Shown here piece by piece: positions 44,686-62,171 of a DNA stretch of 64,000 bases (positions are counted from its first letter, which is position 1; each line of letters starts with the position of its first letter). Location: positions 2,232,001 to 2,296,000 of the forward strand of contig NZ_CP158281.1 in the NCBI RefSeq assembly GCF_040256645.1, read 5' to 3'. The notes beneath the pieces are model-generated. The model had not been told where the DNA came from. It saw only the letters and a program-made list of their open reading frames with translations, and made no database searches. Made by a program: the position numbers and the translations under genes. Origin of the DNA: Brevibacterium sp. CBA3109. Lineage in GTDB: Bacteria > Actinomycetota > Actinomycetes > Actinomycetales > Brevibacteriaceae.

Positions 44686-44714
44686 GAATGGCCTTTCGTA
44701 GGAATGGTGGGATC

Positions 44715-45848
44715 TCAGTTCGATGCCAGCAGAATGCTGGGGTCCTCTGCCAGAATCTCGTCGACTGCACCGAGGAACGCGGTGGTCTCCTCCTCGGTGC
44801 CCGCGTTGACCCGAGCATGGTGGGTGATGCCGATATCACGGATCAGTATTCCGCGATCCAGCAGCTTCTGCCACAGTTCCGGTGGGGAGGCGATGTTGCC
44901 GAACAGGACGAAGTTCGAATCGCTGGGATAGATGGTGAATCCAACGTTTCTTAAGTGCTCCGAAATTCGGTCGCGAGAGTCGCTGAGCCGGTCCACGTTC
45001 TCCAGAAGGACGTCAGCGTGTTCCAGAGCGGTGCAGGCAAGTACCTGGGTGATTTCCGACAGGTGGTAAGGCAAACGCACCAGGCGCAGGACATCGATGA
45101 GTTCCGGTGCCGCGATCGCGTAGCCCAGGCGCAGTCCTGCGCAGGCGAACGCCTTGCTCATCGTCCGCGACACGACCAGACGGGGACGACCGGCCAGAAG
45201 CGTCATCGCCGAGGCCTGTGCGGGCCTGGAGAATTCGGCATAGGCCTCGTCGACGATGACGATGCCCGAGCAATTGTCATACGCGGCTTCGATGACGTCG
45301 AGACCGATCGATGTGCCTGTCGGGTTGTTCGGTGTGCACAGGAAGACGATGTCGGGATCGGTTTTGGCTACCTCGGCGCCCACGGTTTCCGCATCAAGGG
45401 TGAAGTCATCCTTGCGCGCCGATGACTGCCAGGTGGCACCGGTACCGGTGGTGATCAGGGGGTGCATGGAGTAGCTGGGAGTGAATCCGAGGACCGTGCG
45501 ACCCGGCCCGCCGAATGCCTGGACGATATGGGAGAGGACCTCGTTCGATCCGTTTGCCGCCCAGATCATGTCAGAGCTGAGTCCAACGGTCTGACCGGCT
45601 CGGTCATTGACTCCGTGCAGATAGGTGACCAGATGTTCACGCAGTTCCTCGAACTCACGATCGGGGTAGCGATTGAGTCCGGCGAAGTGCCCGTCAACAG
45701 CCGATCGCATGCTTTCGACGACCACATCCGGAATCGGATAGGCGTTCTCGTTGACGTTCAGCTGCACCGGCACGTCCAGATGCGGAGCCCCATAGGGCTT
45801 GAGGCCGACTAGGTCAGAACGCACTGGCAAAGACTCGTTATTTCCCAC
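44715..45848 (-). CDS. hisC: histidinol-phosphate aminotransferase
   Basis: This 377-residue class I/II PLP aminotransferase has the NVNENAYP substrate loop, [10 protein letters not shown], and the Schiff-base lysine in [18 protein letters not shown]. It converts imidazole acetol phosphate to histidinol phosphate. It is the first gene of the leftward his operon seen here; hisD is not present upstream, where the LysM/lexA pair lies instead. Confidence 0.94.
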
Positions 45849-45857
45849 CGCATCAGT

Positions 45858-46190
45858 CTAGCGTTGGGGCACATCCAAGGTCTGACCCGGGTGCACCACA
45901 GGCGAGGACAGATGGTTGATGTCGGCGATGTCAGACACGACATCGCGAGTGTCACGGTCGAGCCCGAGGTCCACAGCAACGGCCCACAGTGACTCTCCTT
46001 CACCGACGACGACTGCTTCGGCGTCGATCCCGATGTCCTCGGCCTCTGCTCCGGCTGCGGCCGAGAACGACTGCGTGGCGACGAAGAATGCTCCGCCGAC
46101 GATGACGAAAGCGCACACCATGGTCCGAAGCAGACGCATCGCCTGGCGTCCACGAGTGGTGAAACGCAGTTCCTGGTTCTGTGCAGACAT
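45858..46190 (-). CDS. small membrane protein with LysM domain, candidate SOS division inhibitor
   Basis: This 110-residue protein has a single membrane helix (about residues 21-40) and a C-terminal LysM domain (about 61-108, with GESLWAVAVDLGL and HPGQTLDVP). It is divergent from lexA and has a perfect LexA-type palindrome 42 bases before its start. This arrangement and architecture match Bacillus YneA and mycobacterial Rv2719c, which are SOS-induced and restrain cell division. That role is inferred from position and domain layout rather than from close sequence match. Confidence 0.75.
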   Translation of the reverse strand: MSAQNQELRFTTRGRQAMRLLRTMVCAFVIVGGAFFVATQSFSAAAGAEAEDIGIDAEAVVVGEGESLWAVAVDLGLDRDTRDVVSDIADINHLSSPVVHPGQTLDVPQR

Positions 46191-46231
46191 CGATTAACCT
46201 CTTTCCTTCGTACGATTCCACCCGTAATAGG

Positions 46232-46247
46232 TAGAACGTCTGTTCTA
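46232..46247. promoter_or_regulatory. LexA box (perfect palindrome)
   Basis: TAGAACGTCTGTTCTA is a perfect 6-4-6 palindrome matching the GAAC-N4-GTTC core of actinobacterial LexA sites. It lies in the divergent region between the LysM gene and lexA, nearer the LysM gene. Confidence 0.8.
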
Positions 46248-46260
46248 TTCAACATGCCAA

Positions 46261-46276
46261 TCGAACATATGTCCAG
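46261..46276. promoter_or_regulatory. imperfect LexA-type site
   Basis: TCGAACATATGTCCAG has a perfect left half (TCGAAC) and three of six matches in the right half. It is closer to lexA than the perfect box and may belong to autoregulation. Confidence 0.4.
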
Positions 46277-46282
46277 TCCAAC

Positions 46283-46298
46283 TCGAACATTTATGCGA
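46283..46298. promoter_or_regulatory. imperfect LexA-type site
   Basis: TCGAACATTTATGCGA has a perfect left half and four of six matches in the right half, 126 bases before the lexA start. With the two sites upstream it makes a row of three TCGAAC-like elements. Confidence 0.4.
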
Positions 46299-46424
46299 CA
46301 ATGAGGGGGAACCAGCGTTGTTGATTGGTCTGATAGAACCATCTCAGGCGGCACTGACACGAGAATTCTCGACGTGAGGATCAAGCGGTGAGGCCGGCGG
46401 GAATAGAACGAAGGGGAACGAGCA

Positions 46425-47180
46425 ATGGTTCAGAACAAACGAGGGAGGGGCCGTCCCCGCAATGAGGACGTCGCCAGCGAGATCGCGGCCGCCCGCAGCG
46501 ATGACGTGGATGTCTCGATTCCGGAAGGCTCCACCGGTGAGGGCGATTTTCGTCTGACCCCGCGACAGCGGCTGGTCCTTGAGACCATTGAACGCGCGGT
46601 CGTCACCAACGGCTACCCGCCGAGCATGCGCGAGATCGGCAAAGCTGCCGGGCTCGCCTCACTCTCCAGCGTGGCCCACCAACTCTCGCAGCTCGAACGC
46701 CTCGGCTATGTCCGCCGAGACCCGAAGCGTCCGCGGGCCATCGAGGTGGTCAACCCCTTCGAAGAAGAAGAGGCGGAGCGCGCCAAATACGAGGAGCTGG
46801 CCAACAACACCGTCCAGGTGCCGGTGGTTGGTCGCATCGCCGCAGGCGGGCCCATTCTGGCCGAGCAGGAAGTCGACGACGTCTTCTCTCTGCCGACCCA
46901 GGTCGTCGGCTCGGGTGACATGTTCCTGCTCAAGGTCGTCGGCGACTCGATGATCGAAGCTGCCATCTGTCACGACGACTGGGTGGTCGTGCGCAAGCAG
47001 CACACCGCAGACAACGGTCAGATCGTCGCTGCGCTGCTCGATGGGGAAGCCACAGTGAAGACCCTCAAGCGCAAGGCCGGGCACCAGTGGCTGCTCCCCC
47101 ACAACAAGGACTACGAACCGATCGACGGCAGCTATGCCCAGATCATGGGTCTCGTCGTGTCGGTCATTCGCCGCCTCTGA
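46425..47180 (+). CDS. lexA: SOS repressor LexA
   Basis: This 251-residue protein has the winged-helix domain ([15 protein letters not shown]), the Ala-Gly self-cleavage site in GRIAAGGPI, the catalytic Ser in GDSMIEAAI and the catalytic Lys in ATVKTLKR. The first ~45 residues are a polar extension, common in actinobacterial LexA. It represses the SOS genes; recA in this window carries a matching box. Confidence 0.96.
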
Positions 47181-47220
47181 CAAGTCCCCCAGGGCCTCCC
47201 GTCGCTCAGTTTCCAACGGA

Positions 47221-47254
47221 CTGTGCCCCCGACCGTTCTCGGTCGGGGGCACAG
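47221..47254. terminator. bidirectional hairpin between lexA and dinG
   Basis: CTGTGCCCCCGACC and its complement form a 14-bp stem with a 6-base loop between the two convergent stop codons. The flanking T-runs are weak. Confidence 0.75.
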
Positions 47255-47271
47255 TGCGTTTCAGGCTCCGA

Positions 47272-49239
47272 TCAGCTCTCGGTCGTCGCCAGGCGTCCAA
47301 GGCTGCTCTTCACGAGTGCCGCATCCGTCGTCGGCCACATTGTAGGCATCGAATTCACCAGGTAGCCGCCGTATCGAGCCGAGCGCAGGCGTGAGTCGAG
47401 GACCGCCACGACTCCCCTGTCGGAGGTCGACCGGATGAGGCGGCCCGCGCCCTGGGCCAGGCGCAGTGCGGCATGAGTGGCGCTGACGGCCATGAACCCG
47501 TTGACTCCCCGATCGTCGGCATCTCTTGACCTCGCCTGCATCAGGGGGTCATCGGGTCGTGGGAACGGAAGTCTGTCGATGATGACGAGACGATTGGTCC
47601 TACCCGGTACGTCCACTCCCTGCCACAGTGACATGGTGCCGAACAGGCAGGCACGGTCATCTGCGGTGAATTGAGAGACGAGAGACGGCAGTCCGTCATC
47701 GCCTTGGAGCAGGATCGGGACGTCCAGTTTCGCTCTCAGATGTTCCGCTGCGGCGTTCGCGGCCGCACGTGAGGAGAACAGTCCCAGCGCTCCACCCTTT
47801 GACGCGGTGACCAGTGCTTCAAGCTCATCCAATGCCTGTTCGCTCAGGCCGCTGCGCCCCGGGCGCGGGAGATGGGCGGCGACATAGAGGATGCTCTGTT
47901 TGCCGTAGTCGAAGGGTGATCCGACGTCGAGGCTGTCCCATTTGGGCGCGTCGGGGCCGAACAGCCCCAACGAGGCTGCGACCGCGTCGAAGTTGCCGCC
48001 CAGTGACAGAGTCGCCGAGGTGGCCACCACCGTCGAATCTTCGAAGATTCCTGACCGCATGGTGCCGGCAACGCTCAGCGGCGCGACGACGAGGTTGGTG
48101 GTCTCGCGCTCGCGGAAGGTGCTTCGAGACAGCCACACGACGTCGTTCTTACCCGGTGAGCAGAAGCGCTCGGCCAGGTCGAAGATCTCCTGACAGCGGG
48201 CCTTAGCCATCTGTCGACCGGCGTCAGACTCTTCGGTCTTGCCGCCGATATCGTTGATGATCTGTCGCGTGGAGTCGCGAATCTGGGCCAGCGCGAGGGA
48301 CAGCGCCTCGCTCATATTCATGATCAGGCCCTCGCTGACACCGCTTTGGGCCCTCTCCAGTGCTGCAGTGGCAGAATCGAGCAGCGCGACAACACCGTCC
48401 TGAACGATGGTGTGTTTGCGCACGGAGCTCGTGGCTGCCGAGAGCATACTGGTGTTGATCTGACCGGACAGGGCGTTCGTGACCCGATCCTTGAGTTCGT
48501 GGGCCTCATCGATGATGATGACATCGTGTTCGGGCAGCACGGTGTTCTCACCGAATGCATCGATGGCCAGCAGGGCGTGGTTGGTCACGACGATGTCGGC
48601 CTCGGCTGCGTTATTGCGGGCCAGCTCTGCGAAGCACTCCGTGTACAGGGGGCAGTTCGAACCGAGGCAGTCAAAGGCGTTGACAGAGACCTCCGACCAG
48701 GCCCTGTCACTGACTCCGGGCAGCAGATCGTCTCGATCGCCGGTGTCCGTAGTCTTCTCCCACGTCCGGATCCGCTGGATCTCCTCACCCAGGCCGGACC
48801 GGTCGTTCGGCTTTCGACCGGCCTCTGCATCGGCGCCGAGGTCGAAGAGCATGCCTTCGCCCTCATCGGGATAGCCGCCGGAGAGTTTGTGTTTGCAGAC
48901 ATAGTTGCGCCGGCCCTTGAGCAGGGCGGCCCGCGGCAGCGGGTCGAGGGTCTTCTTCACCGCTTTGAACAGTCGCGGCAGATCCCTGTGGATGATCTGA
49001 GTCTGCAGGGCCAAGGTCGCCGTCGACACGATGACGCGCTTGCCCGTCCGGCTGGAGTAATCGGCGGCAGGAACCAGGTACGCCAAAGACTTTCCTGTGC
49101 CGGTGCCGGCCTGAACCAACAGATGGATGCCCTTGTCCACCGATGAGGCGACTGCCTCGGCCATCTCCGTCTGACCCTTCCTGGTCGAGCCGCCGATGGC
49201 CCCTACGGCGGACTCGAGCAGATCTTCGACGCTGCTCAC
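47272..49239 (-). CDS. dinG: DinG-type ATP-dependent DNA helicase
   Basis: This 655-residue XPD/DinG-family helicase has Walker A AGTGTGKSLAYLVPA, the four-Cys region that would hold an iron-sulfur cluster (Cys residues around the CKHKLSGG, CLGSNCPLYTEC stretch), the DEAH box IIDEAHEL, and the C-terminal motifs LFSSRAAANA and QGAGRLIRS. The GTG start overlaps the hflX stop. It unwinds DNA during repair. Its position after hflX and opposite lexA is standard for the group. Confidence 0.92.
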   Translation of the reverse strand: MSSVEDLLESAVGAIGGSTRKGQTEMAEAVASSVDKGIHLLVQAGTGTGKSLAYLVPAADYSSRTGKRVIVSTATLALQTQIIHRDLPRLFKAVKKTLDPLPRAALLKGRRNYVCKHKLSGGYPDEGEGMLFDLGADAEAGRKPNDRSGLGEEIQRIRTWEKTTDTGDRDDLLPGVSDRAWSEVSVNAFDCLGSNCPLYTECFAELARNNAAEADIVVTNHALLAIDAFGENTVLPEHDVIIIDEAHELKDRVTNALSGQINTSMLSAATSSVRKHTIVQDGVVALLDSATAALERAQSGVSEGLIMNMSEALSLALAQIRDSTRQIINDIGGKTEESDAGRQMAKARCQEIFDLAERFCSPGKNDVVWLSRSTFRERETTNLVVAPLSVAGTMRSGIFEDSTVVATSATLSLGGNFDAVAASLGLFGPDAPKWDSLDVGSPFDYGKQSILYVAAHLPRPGRSGLSEQALDELEALVTASKGGALGLFSSRAAANAAAEHLRAKLDVPILLQGDDGLPSLVSQFTADDRACLFGTMSLWQGVDVPGRTNRLVIIDRLPFPRPDDPLMQARSRDADDRGVNGFMAVSATHAALRLAQGAGRLIRSTSDRGVVAVLDSRLRSARYGGYLVNSMPTMWPTTDAALVKSSLGRLATTES

Positions 49240-53812: not shown

Positions 53813-54572
53813 TCAAATCGTCTGGAGCCAGGTTATCTCGTATCGGAAGAATTCTTGATCCGGCCAACGATCGATACCGAAGTTCCAGCCGAGTCGCCCT
53901 GAGCTGGGTATGTTCAACCCACCGAATGTGCGATAACCGGTGATCTCTCCACCGAATGGATGCCAGCCGAACGTTCCGGTGTTTCCTGGATCACCCCATC
54001 GGTCAAAGACCAGGGACTGGATGTGGCCATCCGGATGCAGGTTGTAGCTGACGTCTACGGGCGTGTCTCCGAGCACGTGCTGCACCGAAATGCGCGATTC
54101 ATCGGTAGCGGACCACGTCACTTACGAATCGAGGCAGCAATGCTGTCGGAACCCAGACGGCCTCTGCTCCGCCACGACCAGCAGCGCTACGAGACACATC
54201 TTGGCCAGCAGCGGACGCGACGGTGAACAACCCGAAGAGCTTCCAGTCCATGCCACCGATACCGTCAAGGTACTGATCGGATCCGACAACAACTCCGGCA
54301 ACACGAGCTGCCCAGATGAAACCCCTGTGTGGGTTGAGTATCTGCGTGGCTTGAAACGGCAGCCATCTACACAGCTTGATGCTGCCGCGCATCTTCAGCT
54401 TTATGGTCCTCGTCAGCGGAGCACCAACACGTATTGCACATCGGAGATGCCGTTGTACAGGTTCCGGTAGCCCGGCAATCTCCTGGCTGGTGAAGGTCGC
54501 GTGAGACGAGACTTCCTTAAGTCGCTGCTCCCATTCGGGCCGACTTTTAGGTTCACACTGATCGAAGCTCAC
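53813..54572 (-). pseudogene. frameshifted DUF6920/DUF6544-like gene
   Basis: Two minus-strand frames make one protein of about 250 residues. The first (54572 to 54099) has LPEPVQRHLR, FIWAARVAG and WVPTALLPRF. The second (54121 to 53813) continues with TWSATDES, SLVFDRWGDPGN and FGWHPFGGEITGYRTFGG. They overlap and are out of register near 54115, so a single-base indel is likely. The family is a beta-rich conserved protein of unknown function. It may be a sequencing error, since both halves are otherwise well preserved. Confidence 0.7.
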
Positions 54573-60701: not shown

Positions 60702-61800
60702 CCGATTTCGCGCTCTCTGCTGCAGTGCCTTCAGCCTGGTCGGCCCCCGCCTCGGCCTCAGGTTCGGGCCCGTCGACCTTGATCAGCCCCATCTTGTGTT
60801 TGATCTTGAGTTCGATCTCCTCAGCAAGTCCCGGATTGTCGCGCAGGAAGTTGCGAACATTCTCTTTGCCCTGACCGAGCTGATCACCGTCGTAGGTGAA
60901 CCAGGACCCGGATTTGCGGACGATTCCGTTCTCCACACCCATATCGATGAGGCTGCCTTCACGGGAGATCCCTTGACCGTAGATGATGTCGAATTCGGCC
61001 TGTTTGAATGGTGGAGCGATTTTGTTCTTGACGATCTTGGCGCGGGTTCTGTTGCCCACCGCGTCCTGGCCCTCTTTCAGAGTCTCGATGCGTCGCACAT
61101 CGATGCGCACGGAGGCGTAGAACTTCAGAGCCTTACCACCGGAGGTGGTCTCTGGTGAGCCGAAGAAGACACCGACCTTCTCACGCAGCTGGTTGATGAA
61201 GATTGCGGTGGTCTTCGACTGGGACAGTGCACCCGCGATCTTGCGCAGTGCCTGCGACATCAGTCGTGCCTGGAGACCGACGTGGCTGTCACCCATCTCG
61301 CCTTCGATCTCGGCCTTCGGCACGAGTGCCGCAACGGAGTCGATGACGATGACGTCGAGTGCTCCGGAGCGGATGAGCATGTCGGCGATCTCAAGCGCCT
61401 GCTCACCGGTGTCCGGCTGAGACACGAGCAGCTGGTCGGTGTCGACGCCGAGCTTCTTCGCGTATTCCGGGTCAAGGGCGTGCTCAGCATCGATGAATGC
61501 CGCGATTCCGCCCGTCTTCTGTGCATTGGCGACAGCGTGCAGTGCCACTGTGGTCTTACCCGAGGATTCCGGGCCGTAGATCTCGACGACACGACCGCGC
61601 GGGAGGCCGCCGATGCCCAAAGCGATGTCGAGTGCGATGGAACCGGTGGGAATGCAGGCGATCGGTTCACGGACCCCTTCACCCAGACGCATGATCGCGC
61701 CCTTGCCGTAGTTGCGGTCGATCTGGCCCAGCGCGGCGTCAAGCGCCTTCGACTTATCTCCGCCGGTTGGGATCTGCAGGTTCTTCGGTGTACGAGCCAT
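60682..61800 (-). CDS. recA: recombinase RecA
   Basis: This 372-residue protein has Walker [10 protein letters not shown], Walker [13 protein letters not shown], the L2-loop-flanking [11 protein letters not shown] and an acidic C-terminal tail. An AGGAGA site precedes the ATG. It performs strand exchange and triggers LexA cleavage. A LexA box lies ~145 bases upstream. Confidence 0.98.
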
Positions 61801-62171
61801 GGTCTCTCCTAAAAATTTCGTTTCCCGTTGAGACCAAGGCTAGAAGGTGGCACTGACATAACAACAGAGGAACGAATTCCCCCGTGGATAATCAGCCACT
61901 CATGGTCACAGGTCCCGTGATTCGTTACCAGCATAACCGACATGGGAACAAGTGTTCTATATGTCGGAGCGTGTCGCACTATTTTGTATCCGAGGCCTCT
62001 CCCCCGCATGGAAGACGATCCCTGTGCGTTCGAGTGATTGCCTCGTGCAAGCGATCCGCCATCAGCAATGGCTCCAGTGCCGCAGCTGCGATCTCGCAAC
62101 GACAGGGGCCAGGCAGTGAGTCAGCACGAGGCAGGATGTCTGAGACGACAGACAATCCGGGAAGGACTGCC
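61801..62171. other. recA upstream region
   Basis: This 371-base gap between DUF3046 and recA holds the LexA box at 61944-61959 and presumably the recA promoters. No gene is seen. Confidence 0.6.
61944..61959. promoter_or_regulatory. LexA box upstream of recA
   Basis: GGGAACAAGTGTTCTA contains the perfect core GAAC-AAGT-GTTC of the actinobacterial SOS box, in the recA leader. Confidence 0.8.

Follow-up and report, generated by a model that had tools for sequence, protein, structure and literature searches.

Cornish et al. (2012; cited in PMC3998124) are said to report that division inhibition is widespread in the SOS regulons of Gram-positive bacteria. According to published accounts, the gene for ChiZ (Rv2719c) adjoins lexA, has several LexA boxes, and encodes a protein with one transmembrane helix and a C-terminal LysM domain (PMC7355643, PMC8151990). 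The N-terminal region of ChiZ, which is given as 64 disordered cytoplasmic residues, is together with the helix reported to be enough for filamentation, and FtsQ and FtsI were its partners in two-hybrid tests (PMC7355643). YneA from Bacillus subtilis is an SOS-induced small transmembrane LysM protein encoded close to lexA (PMC3989709, PMC13396833); it is described as binding FtsW via its transmembrane helix and as requiring the binding of its LysM domain to peptidoglycan, with K5, E6, F10, V11, and F14 as key residues (PMC13396833). By description, we set two further proteins beside the one studied here: DivS from Corynebacterium glutamicum, an SOS-inducible division suppressor near lexA that is stated to have no significant homology to YneA (PMC3989709), and SosA from Staphylococcus aureus, an SOS-induced small division inhibitor (PMC6851548).

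We analyzed a LysM gene in a Brevibacterium genome of 3.67 Mb, to which B. antiquum and B. aurantiacum were the nearest named relatives in our search. The locus lies in a 64-kb window at contig positions 2232001–2296000, by which we mean the whole stretch of DNA analyzed. The original prediction described a LysM gene and lexA as a divergent pair with three LexA-like sites between them, and both open reading frames and all boxes were recovered (Table 1). The lexA product scores 220.6 bits against TIGR00498 (cut-off 111), and hisC lies 3' of the LysM gene. A DinG/YoaA-like helicase gene (47272–49239, minus strand) is convergent with lexA; it scores 488.9 bits against the NCBIfam YoaA model, below the cut-off of 680. 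The lexA leader between 46303 and 46360 is conserved in 38 close genomes (e.g. GGCACTGACACGAG) despite containing no recognized box or Rfam family (an Rfam search of 44700–47400 returned no match), and its later part (46360–46404) is freely variable. An extra GAAC half-site near 46331, also within the leader, shows no conservation in the alignment.

Table 1. Features of the lexA-LysM locus and of the recA upstream region (positions in the window)
Feature	Positions	Strand	Details
LysM membrane protein gene	45858–46190	−	110 aa; Pfam, dN/dS, AlphaFold2
LexA box 1, TAGAACGTCTGTTCTA	46232–46247		perfect palindrome; starts at last base of LysM −10 and covers expected start
Predicted LysM −10, TTGAAT	46247–46252	−	scoring; identical in 38/38 close genomes
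LexA-like box 2, TCGAACATATGTCCAG	46261–46276		one good half, the other being the predicted LysM −35
Predicted LysM −35, TGGACA, inside box 2	46270–46275	−	scoring; identical in 38/38 close genomes
LexA-like box 3, TCGAACATTTATGCGA	46283–46298		one good half, the other reaching into the probable lexA extended −10
Probable lexA extended −10, TGCGACAAT	46294–46302	+	prediction; no clear −35
lexA	46425–47180	+	251 aa; retains the A140-G141 cleavage site and the catalytic residues Ser (in GDSM) and Lys (in VKTL)
recA (SOS sensor)	60799–61800	−	start codon at 61800; 3' end from HMM match
PafBC-type element of recA, TGTCAG-N10-TAGCCT	61837–61858	−	motif match
LexA-like box upstream of recA, TAGAACACTTGTTCCC	61944–61959	−	consensus scan; with mismatches

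The LysM protein starts with a short basic N terminus and one transmembrane helix (approximately residues 20–42), where hydropathy peaks at 2.16 from residue 20; an acidic linker leads from there to the LysM domain (residues 58–108), which ends the protein. The domain belongs to PF01476 (E = 1.3e-7; 31.9 bits, above the Pfam gathering threshold of 20.9). Because dN/dS is 0.11–0.22 in nine pairwise comparisons with relatives, we consider the gene real and constrained. A single transmembrane helix is found in 60/60 proteins of the family and in 102/102 proteins from other families, and the charge distribution suggests an N-in topology. AlphaFold2 predicts a helix (residues 4–44) followed by a β-α-α-β LysM fold (mean pLDDT 69.9, pTM 0.42), for which Foldseek returned LysM domains (best E = 6.9e-3), with wall enzymes and lectins among the neighbors. 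Invariant columns fall mostly in the LysM part (V62, L68, W69, N92, G102, Q103, and P108). Directly before the helix, a juxtamembrane [LIV][TNS]xRGR motif is present in 75/102 other-family proteins and 33/60 Brevibacteriaceae proteins (loci L047–L225); this motif may be a divisome contact.

LysM being a general peptidoglycan-binding domain, these structural neighbors would also suit an SOS-regulated wall-binding anchor, which protects or remodels peptidoglycan during damage and does not inhibit division. We regard such an anchor as unlikely: the 110 residues contain no catalytic domain in a Pfam search, and arrangement and architecture match ChiZ and YneA, for each of which a block of division has been reported. 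A peptidoglycan hydrolase was rejected on the same absence of a catalytic domain, and the ChiZ hydrolase assay is itself described as probably a false positive (PMC7355643).

Among NCBIfam models YneA is the best match for the LysM protein, and nothing else in the genome matches this model. With 39.1 bits the protein stays below the cut-off of 60 for the YneA equivalog (NF010723), and in 8/8 relatives tested YneA is again the best match and again below the cut-off (28–45.6 bits). The architecture and position of YneA and Rv2719c, which had been ascribed to this gene, are thus borne out for the single-helix LysM layout and, across the class, for the linkage to lexA, but not for membership in the YneA family. 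A profile of the Brevibacteriaceae proteins aligned in hhalign with one of lexA-adjacent proteins from another family (f8) over both helix and LysM domain (probability 99, E = 8.8e-18). We take the f8 proteins to be probably mycobacterial ChiZ-like proteins, going by sequence resemblance and by nrdR synteny; searching PDB sequences with one of the f8 proteins returned no hit. Since the profile matches these lexA-adjacent proteins of ChiZ-like architecture, the gene is best read as encoding an SOS-induced division inhibitor. We put the probability that it encodes a ChiZ/Rv2719c-type actinobacterial SOS division brake at roughly 0.74, and by analogy the protein would very probably pause cell division during DNA repair. 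The proposal of a candidate SOS division inhibitor is in this way supported, as a candidate, by architecture, class-wide lexA neighborhood, and conserved operators.

With ChiZ, the Brevibacterium protein shares one helix and a C-terminal LysM domain, and its gene is likewise divergent from lexA with LexA boxes in between. It differs in having only ∼19 residues before the helix, compared with the 64-residue N terminus given for ChiZ (PMC7355643). The helix of YneA in turn lies nearer to its own N terminus than that of the Brevibacterium protein.

The LysM gene is present in 60/60 Brevibacteriaceae genomes. By tblastn it is divergent from and adjoins lexA in 59 of them, and in the sixtieth a HMMER match has the same place and orientation. 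A profile built from 30 family members was run on 148 genomes of the class and matched in 117 of these, leaving 31/148 without a match; the order-level search gave a match in 108/119 genomes. The best class match is divergent from and adjoins lexA in 114/117 genomes, where the match ends lie a median of 427.5 bases apart. Of the three exceptions, two have lexA and the LysM gene split between contigs, and one is a weak match of 31 residues. The gene downstream of the LysM gene, as judged by peptide pattern, is nrdR in 32/49 class loci and hisC in 4/49, whereas in Brevibacteriaceae, as in the present genome, it is hisC (58/60; nrdR 0/60). lexA is present and a LysM match absent in 28 class genomes, including 12/12 genomes of a large-genome family (f21) that we guess to be Streptomycetaceae. 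Granted that guess, the absence fits a published account in which Streptomyces is described as having no clear homologs of known SOS division regulators (PMC9380542). Judged by its distribution, the divergent lexA-LysM pair is an old actinobacterial arrangement, and the lexA-linked gene is probably ancestral in most of the actinobacteria sampled.

A scan of the window for the LexA consensus with up to three mismatches returned 22 matches where 4.9 would be expected; box 1 alone is free of mismatches. Of the 38 close Brevibacterium genomes, 37 share an identical box 1. Box 2 occurs in two variants and box 3 in four, and each of these two boxes retains one good half in 38/38. Boxes are retained even where the flanking sequence can no longer be aligned: counting sites with at most one mismatch 5' of lexA, we found 29 in 22 more distant family members (shuffle mean 0.03) and 95 in 47 other-family loci (shuffle mean 0.2). 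Such a box lies within 400 bases 5' of lexA in 60/60 family loci and 42/47 class loci. A chance cluster of LexA boxes is ruled out by this conservation and by the shuffles. With up to two mismatches, a box is present in 60/60 family loci and in 96/100 loci from 32 other families, which together make up our 160-locus set (the set omits L110, L122, L201, L202, and L203, in which the retrieved sequence does not include lexA, and repeats L163–L168 and L184). LexA control is not universal, as 4/100 other-family loci have no box within two mismatches. In family f5, which belongs to the same order, 3/7 loci (L174, L216, and L217) have the lexA-LysM pair and no box within two mismatches, which suggests that LexA control has been lost or changed there. 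Elsewhere in the Brevibacterium genome, the perfect motif occurs 8 bases before a radical SAM gene of the Rv2578c family and 2 bases before the listed start of imuA', and three further perfect sites are all inside open reading frames. The type of operator and its conservation in relatives place the LysM gene, by sequence, in the LexA/SOS regulon.

The perfect box is indeed the one nearest to the LysM gene, with boxes 2 and 3 farther out. That these two stand nearer to lexA, as originally proposed, is correct relative to box 1 and incorrect in plain distance: box 2 is 70 bases from the LysM start codon and 148 from that of lexA, and box 3 is 92 and 126 bases away, respectively. Their positions take on a different meaning once promoters are considered. 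A simple σ70 scan of 46150–46430 found no promoter, so our promoter calls rest on laxer scoring and on conservation. The top-scoring promoter on the LysM strand combines TGGACA and TTGAAT with a 17-nt spacer and agrees with 9/12 hexamer bases. We prefer it over the alternative TTGAAT-17-TATTAC (46252/46229; 8/12 hexamer bases) because its sequence and spacing hold in 52/60 family loci.

The original prediction had assigned the two weak boxes to lexA and read them as a sign of graded repression. Boxes 2 and 3 each keep one good half in the close genomes and both lie between box 1 and lexA, as graded lexA operators would, but neither TGTCCA (read on the LysM strand, the −35) nor ATTCAA varies among the 38 genomes, and TGGAC[AT]-N17-TTNAAT, a pattern composed after alignment, is present in 52/60 family loci and 0/100 others. 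We therefore find it rather improbable that boxes 2 and 3 serve as graded lexA operators and not as parts of the LysM promoter. That assignment is superseded by one in which box 2 sits on the predicted LysM −35 and box 3 on the probable lexA extended −10. The half-perfect state of the two boxes appears best explained by this overlap, with promoter elements taking up one operator half each, and among the three boxes only box 3 would clearly belong to lexA.

The same promoter-operator overlap sets the genus apart. TGGAC followed by a LexA half-site is found in 55/60 family loci and 1/100 others, and a lexA operator merged with an extended −10 form in 55/57 Brevibacterium loci and 0/103 others. 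The reverse holds for a lexA operator placed on a −35, recognized as one that ends in GTTTGA and is followed by TAnnnT 18–20 bases on (0/57 Brevibacterium loci, 3/3 sister-genus loci, 64/100 loci from 32 other families; shuffles 0–0.3), and for tandem boxes 15–17 bases apart (4/60 family loci, 60/100 other loci, where they usually lie at the LysM end). All these promoter and operator patterns were composed after viewing the alignments, the genome counts cover related, non-independent genomes, and the shuffles used for the lexA layout, as for the PafBC motif, are single-base. We give even odds to a scenario in which Brevibacterium rewired both promoters and kept the operators, the LysM −35 having arisen from a half of box 2 and the extended −10 of lexA from a half of box 3. 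LexA and RNA polymerase would then compete for the same bases at both promoters, and the brake would be under LexA only. The usual layout that was replaced in this scenario would have had a lexA operator on the −35 and often boxes in tandem; for the LysM gene, some lineages would have added a PafBC element.

For Mycobacterium tuberculosis, a published account places a PafBC motif together with three SOS boxes on the rv2719c side and leaves lexA with a sole SOS box (PMC8151990, where the text prints gene numbers as Rv2019c etc. and the supplement legend names rv2719c). The Brevibacterium LysM promoter differs in this respect: searching with the RecA-independent promoter consensus given in PMC5656591, we found no PafBC-type element in the lexA-LysM intergenic region. 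On the LysM strand, a relaxed form of the motif occurs in 20/39 loci outside the order (shuffle mean 1.75), in 9/61 loci in the rest of the order (shuffle mean 3.2), and in 1/60 Brevibacteriaceae loci, below the shuffle mean of 3.7; the corresponding counts for the strict form are 5/39 (all f8), 0/61, and 0/60. A loss of the element special to Brevibacteriaceae was dropped as an idea, the element being uncommon elsewhere in the order too. Control that is mainly independent of LexA, by PafBC-type promoters as in the mycobacterial relative and with only a minor role for the LexA boxes, would draw on the loci outside the order and on the presence in this genome of a pafBC-like WYL pair beside tatC and of a PafBC-type element before recA. 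The near absence of the motif from the family's LysM strands and the LexA half-site that occupies its slot make this very improbable, and the brake looks LexA-only here. The WYL-domain genes are in tandem and adjoin tatC (contig positions 1795041–1796184; L161 and L162); NCBIfam gives neither a name, and they are probably pafB and pafC. Upstream of recA, a LexA-like box and a PafBC-type element occur together, as has been described for mycobacterial recA. The window holds one more strict PafBC-type match, at 54267–54288 (minus strand).

In the mechanism that we infer, LexA of undamaged cells would sit on box 1, over the LysM −10 and start, and on box 2, over the −35, keeping the LysM gene off, and binding to box 3 on the lexA −10 would provide lexA autoregulation. 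Upon DNA damage, RecA filaments would induce LexA self-cleavage and thereby free the LysM promoter. The small LysM protein would then enter the membrane with its LysM domain outside, engage the septal wall-synthesis complex, probably via the helix, and nascent glycan via LysM, and delay division until LexA returns. We lean toward a YneA-like over a ChiZ-like mode of action, as the LysM domain carries most of the invariant columns and the N terminus is short. The LysM step may nevertheless not be essential here, given that the N-terminal region and helix are reported to suffice in ChiZ (PMC7355643).

A division brake of the lexA-linked LysM kind is already known, and the proposed rewired promoters are the new part; going by titles and abstract openings in the open-licence literature, we found no report on the LysM gene in Brevibacterium, and we found no description of the genus-specific promoter layout. 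Taken together, our analysis would carry the ChiZ-type SOS brake beyond the mycobacteria, in which it has been studied, to a lexA-linked gene that most of the sampled actinobacteria have and that is probably ancestral; a cheese-type bacterium would be a convenient organism for testing it. The genus Brevibacterium and its sister genera offer a natural comparison, in which operators appear to stay in place while promoters move around them.
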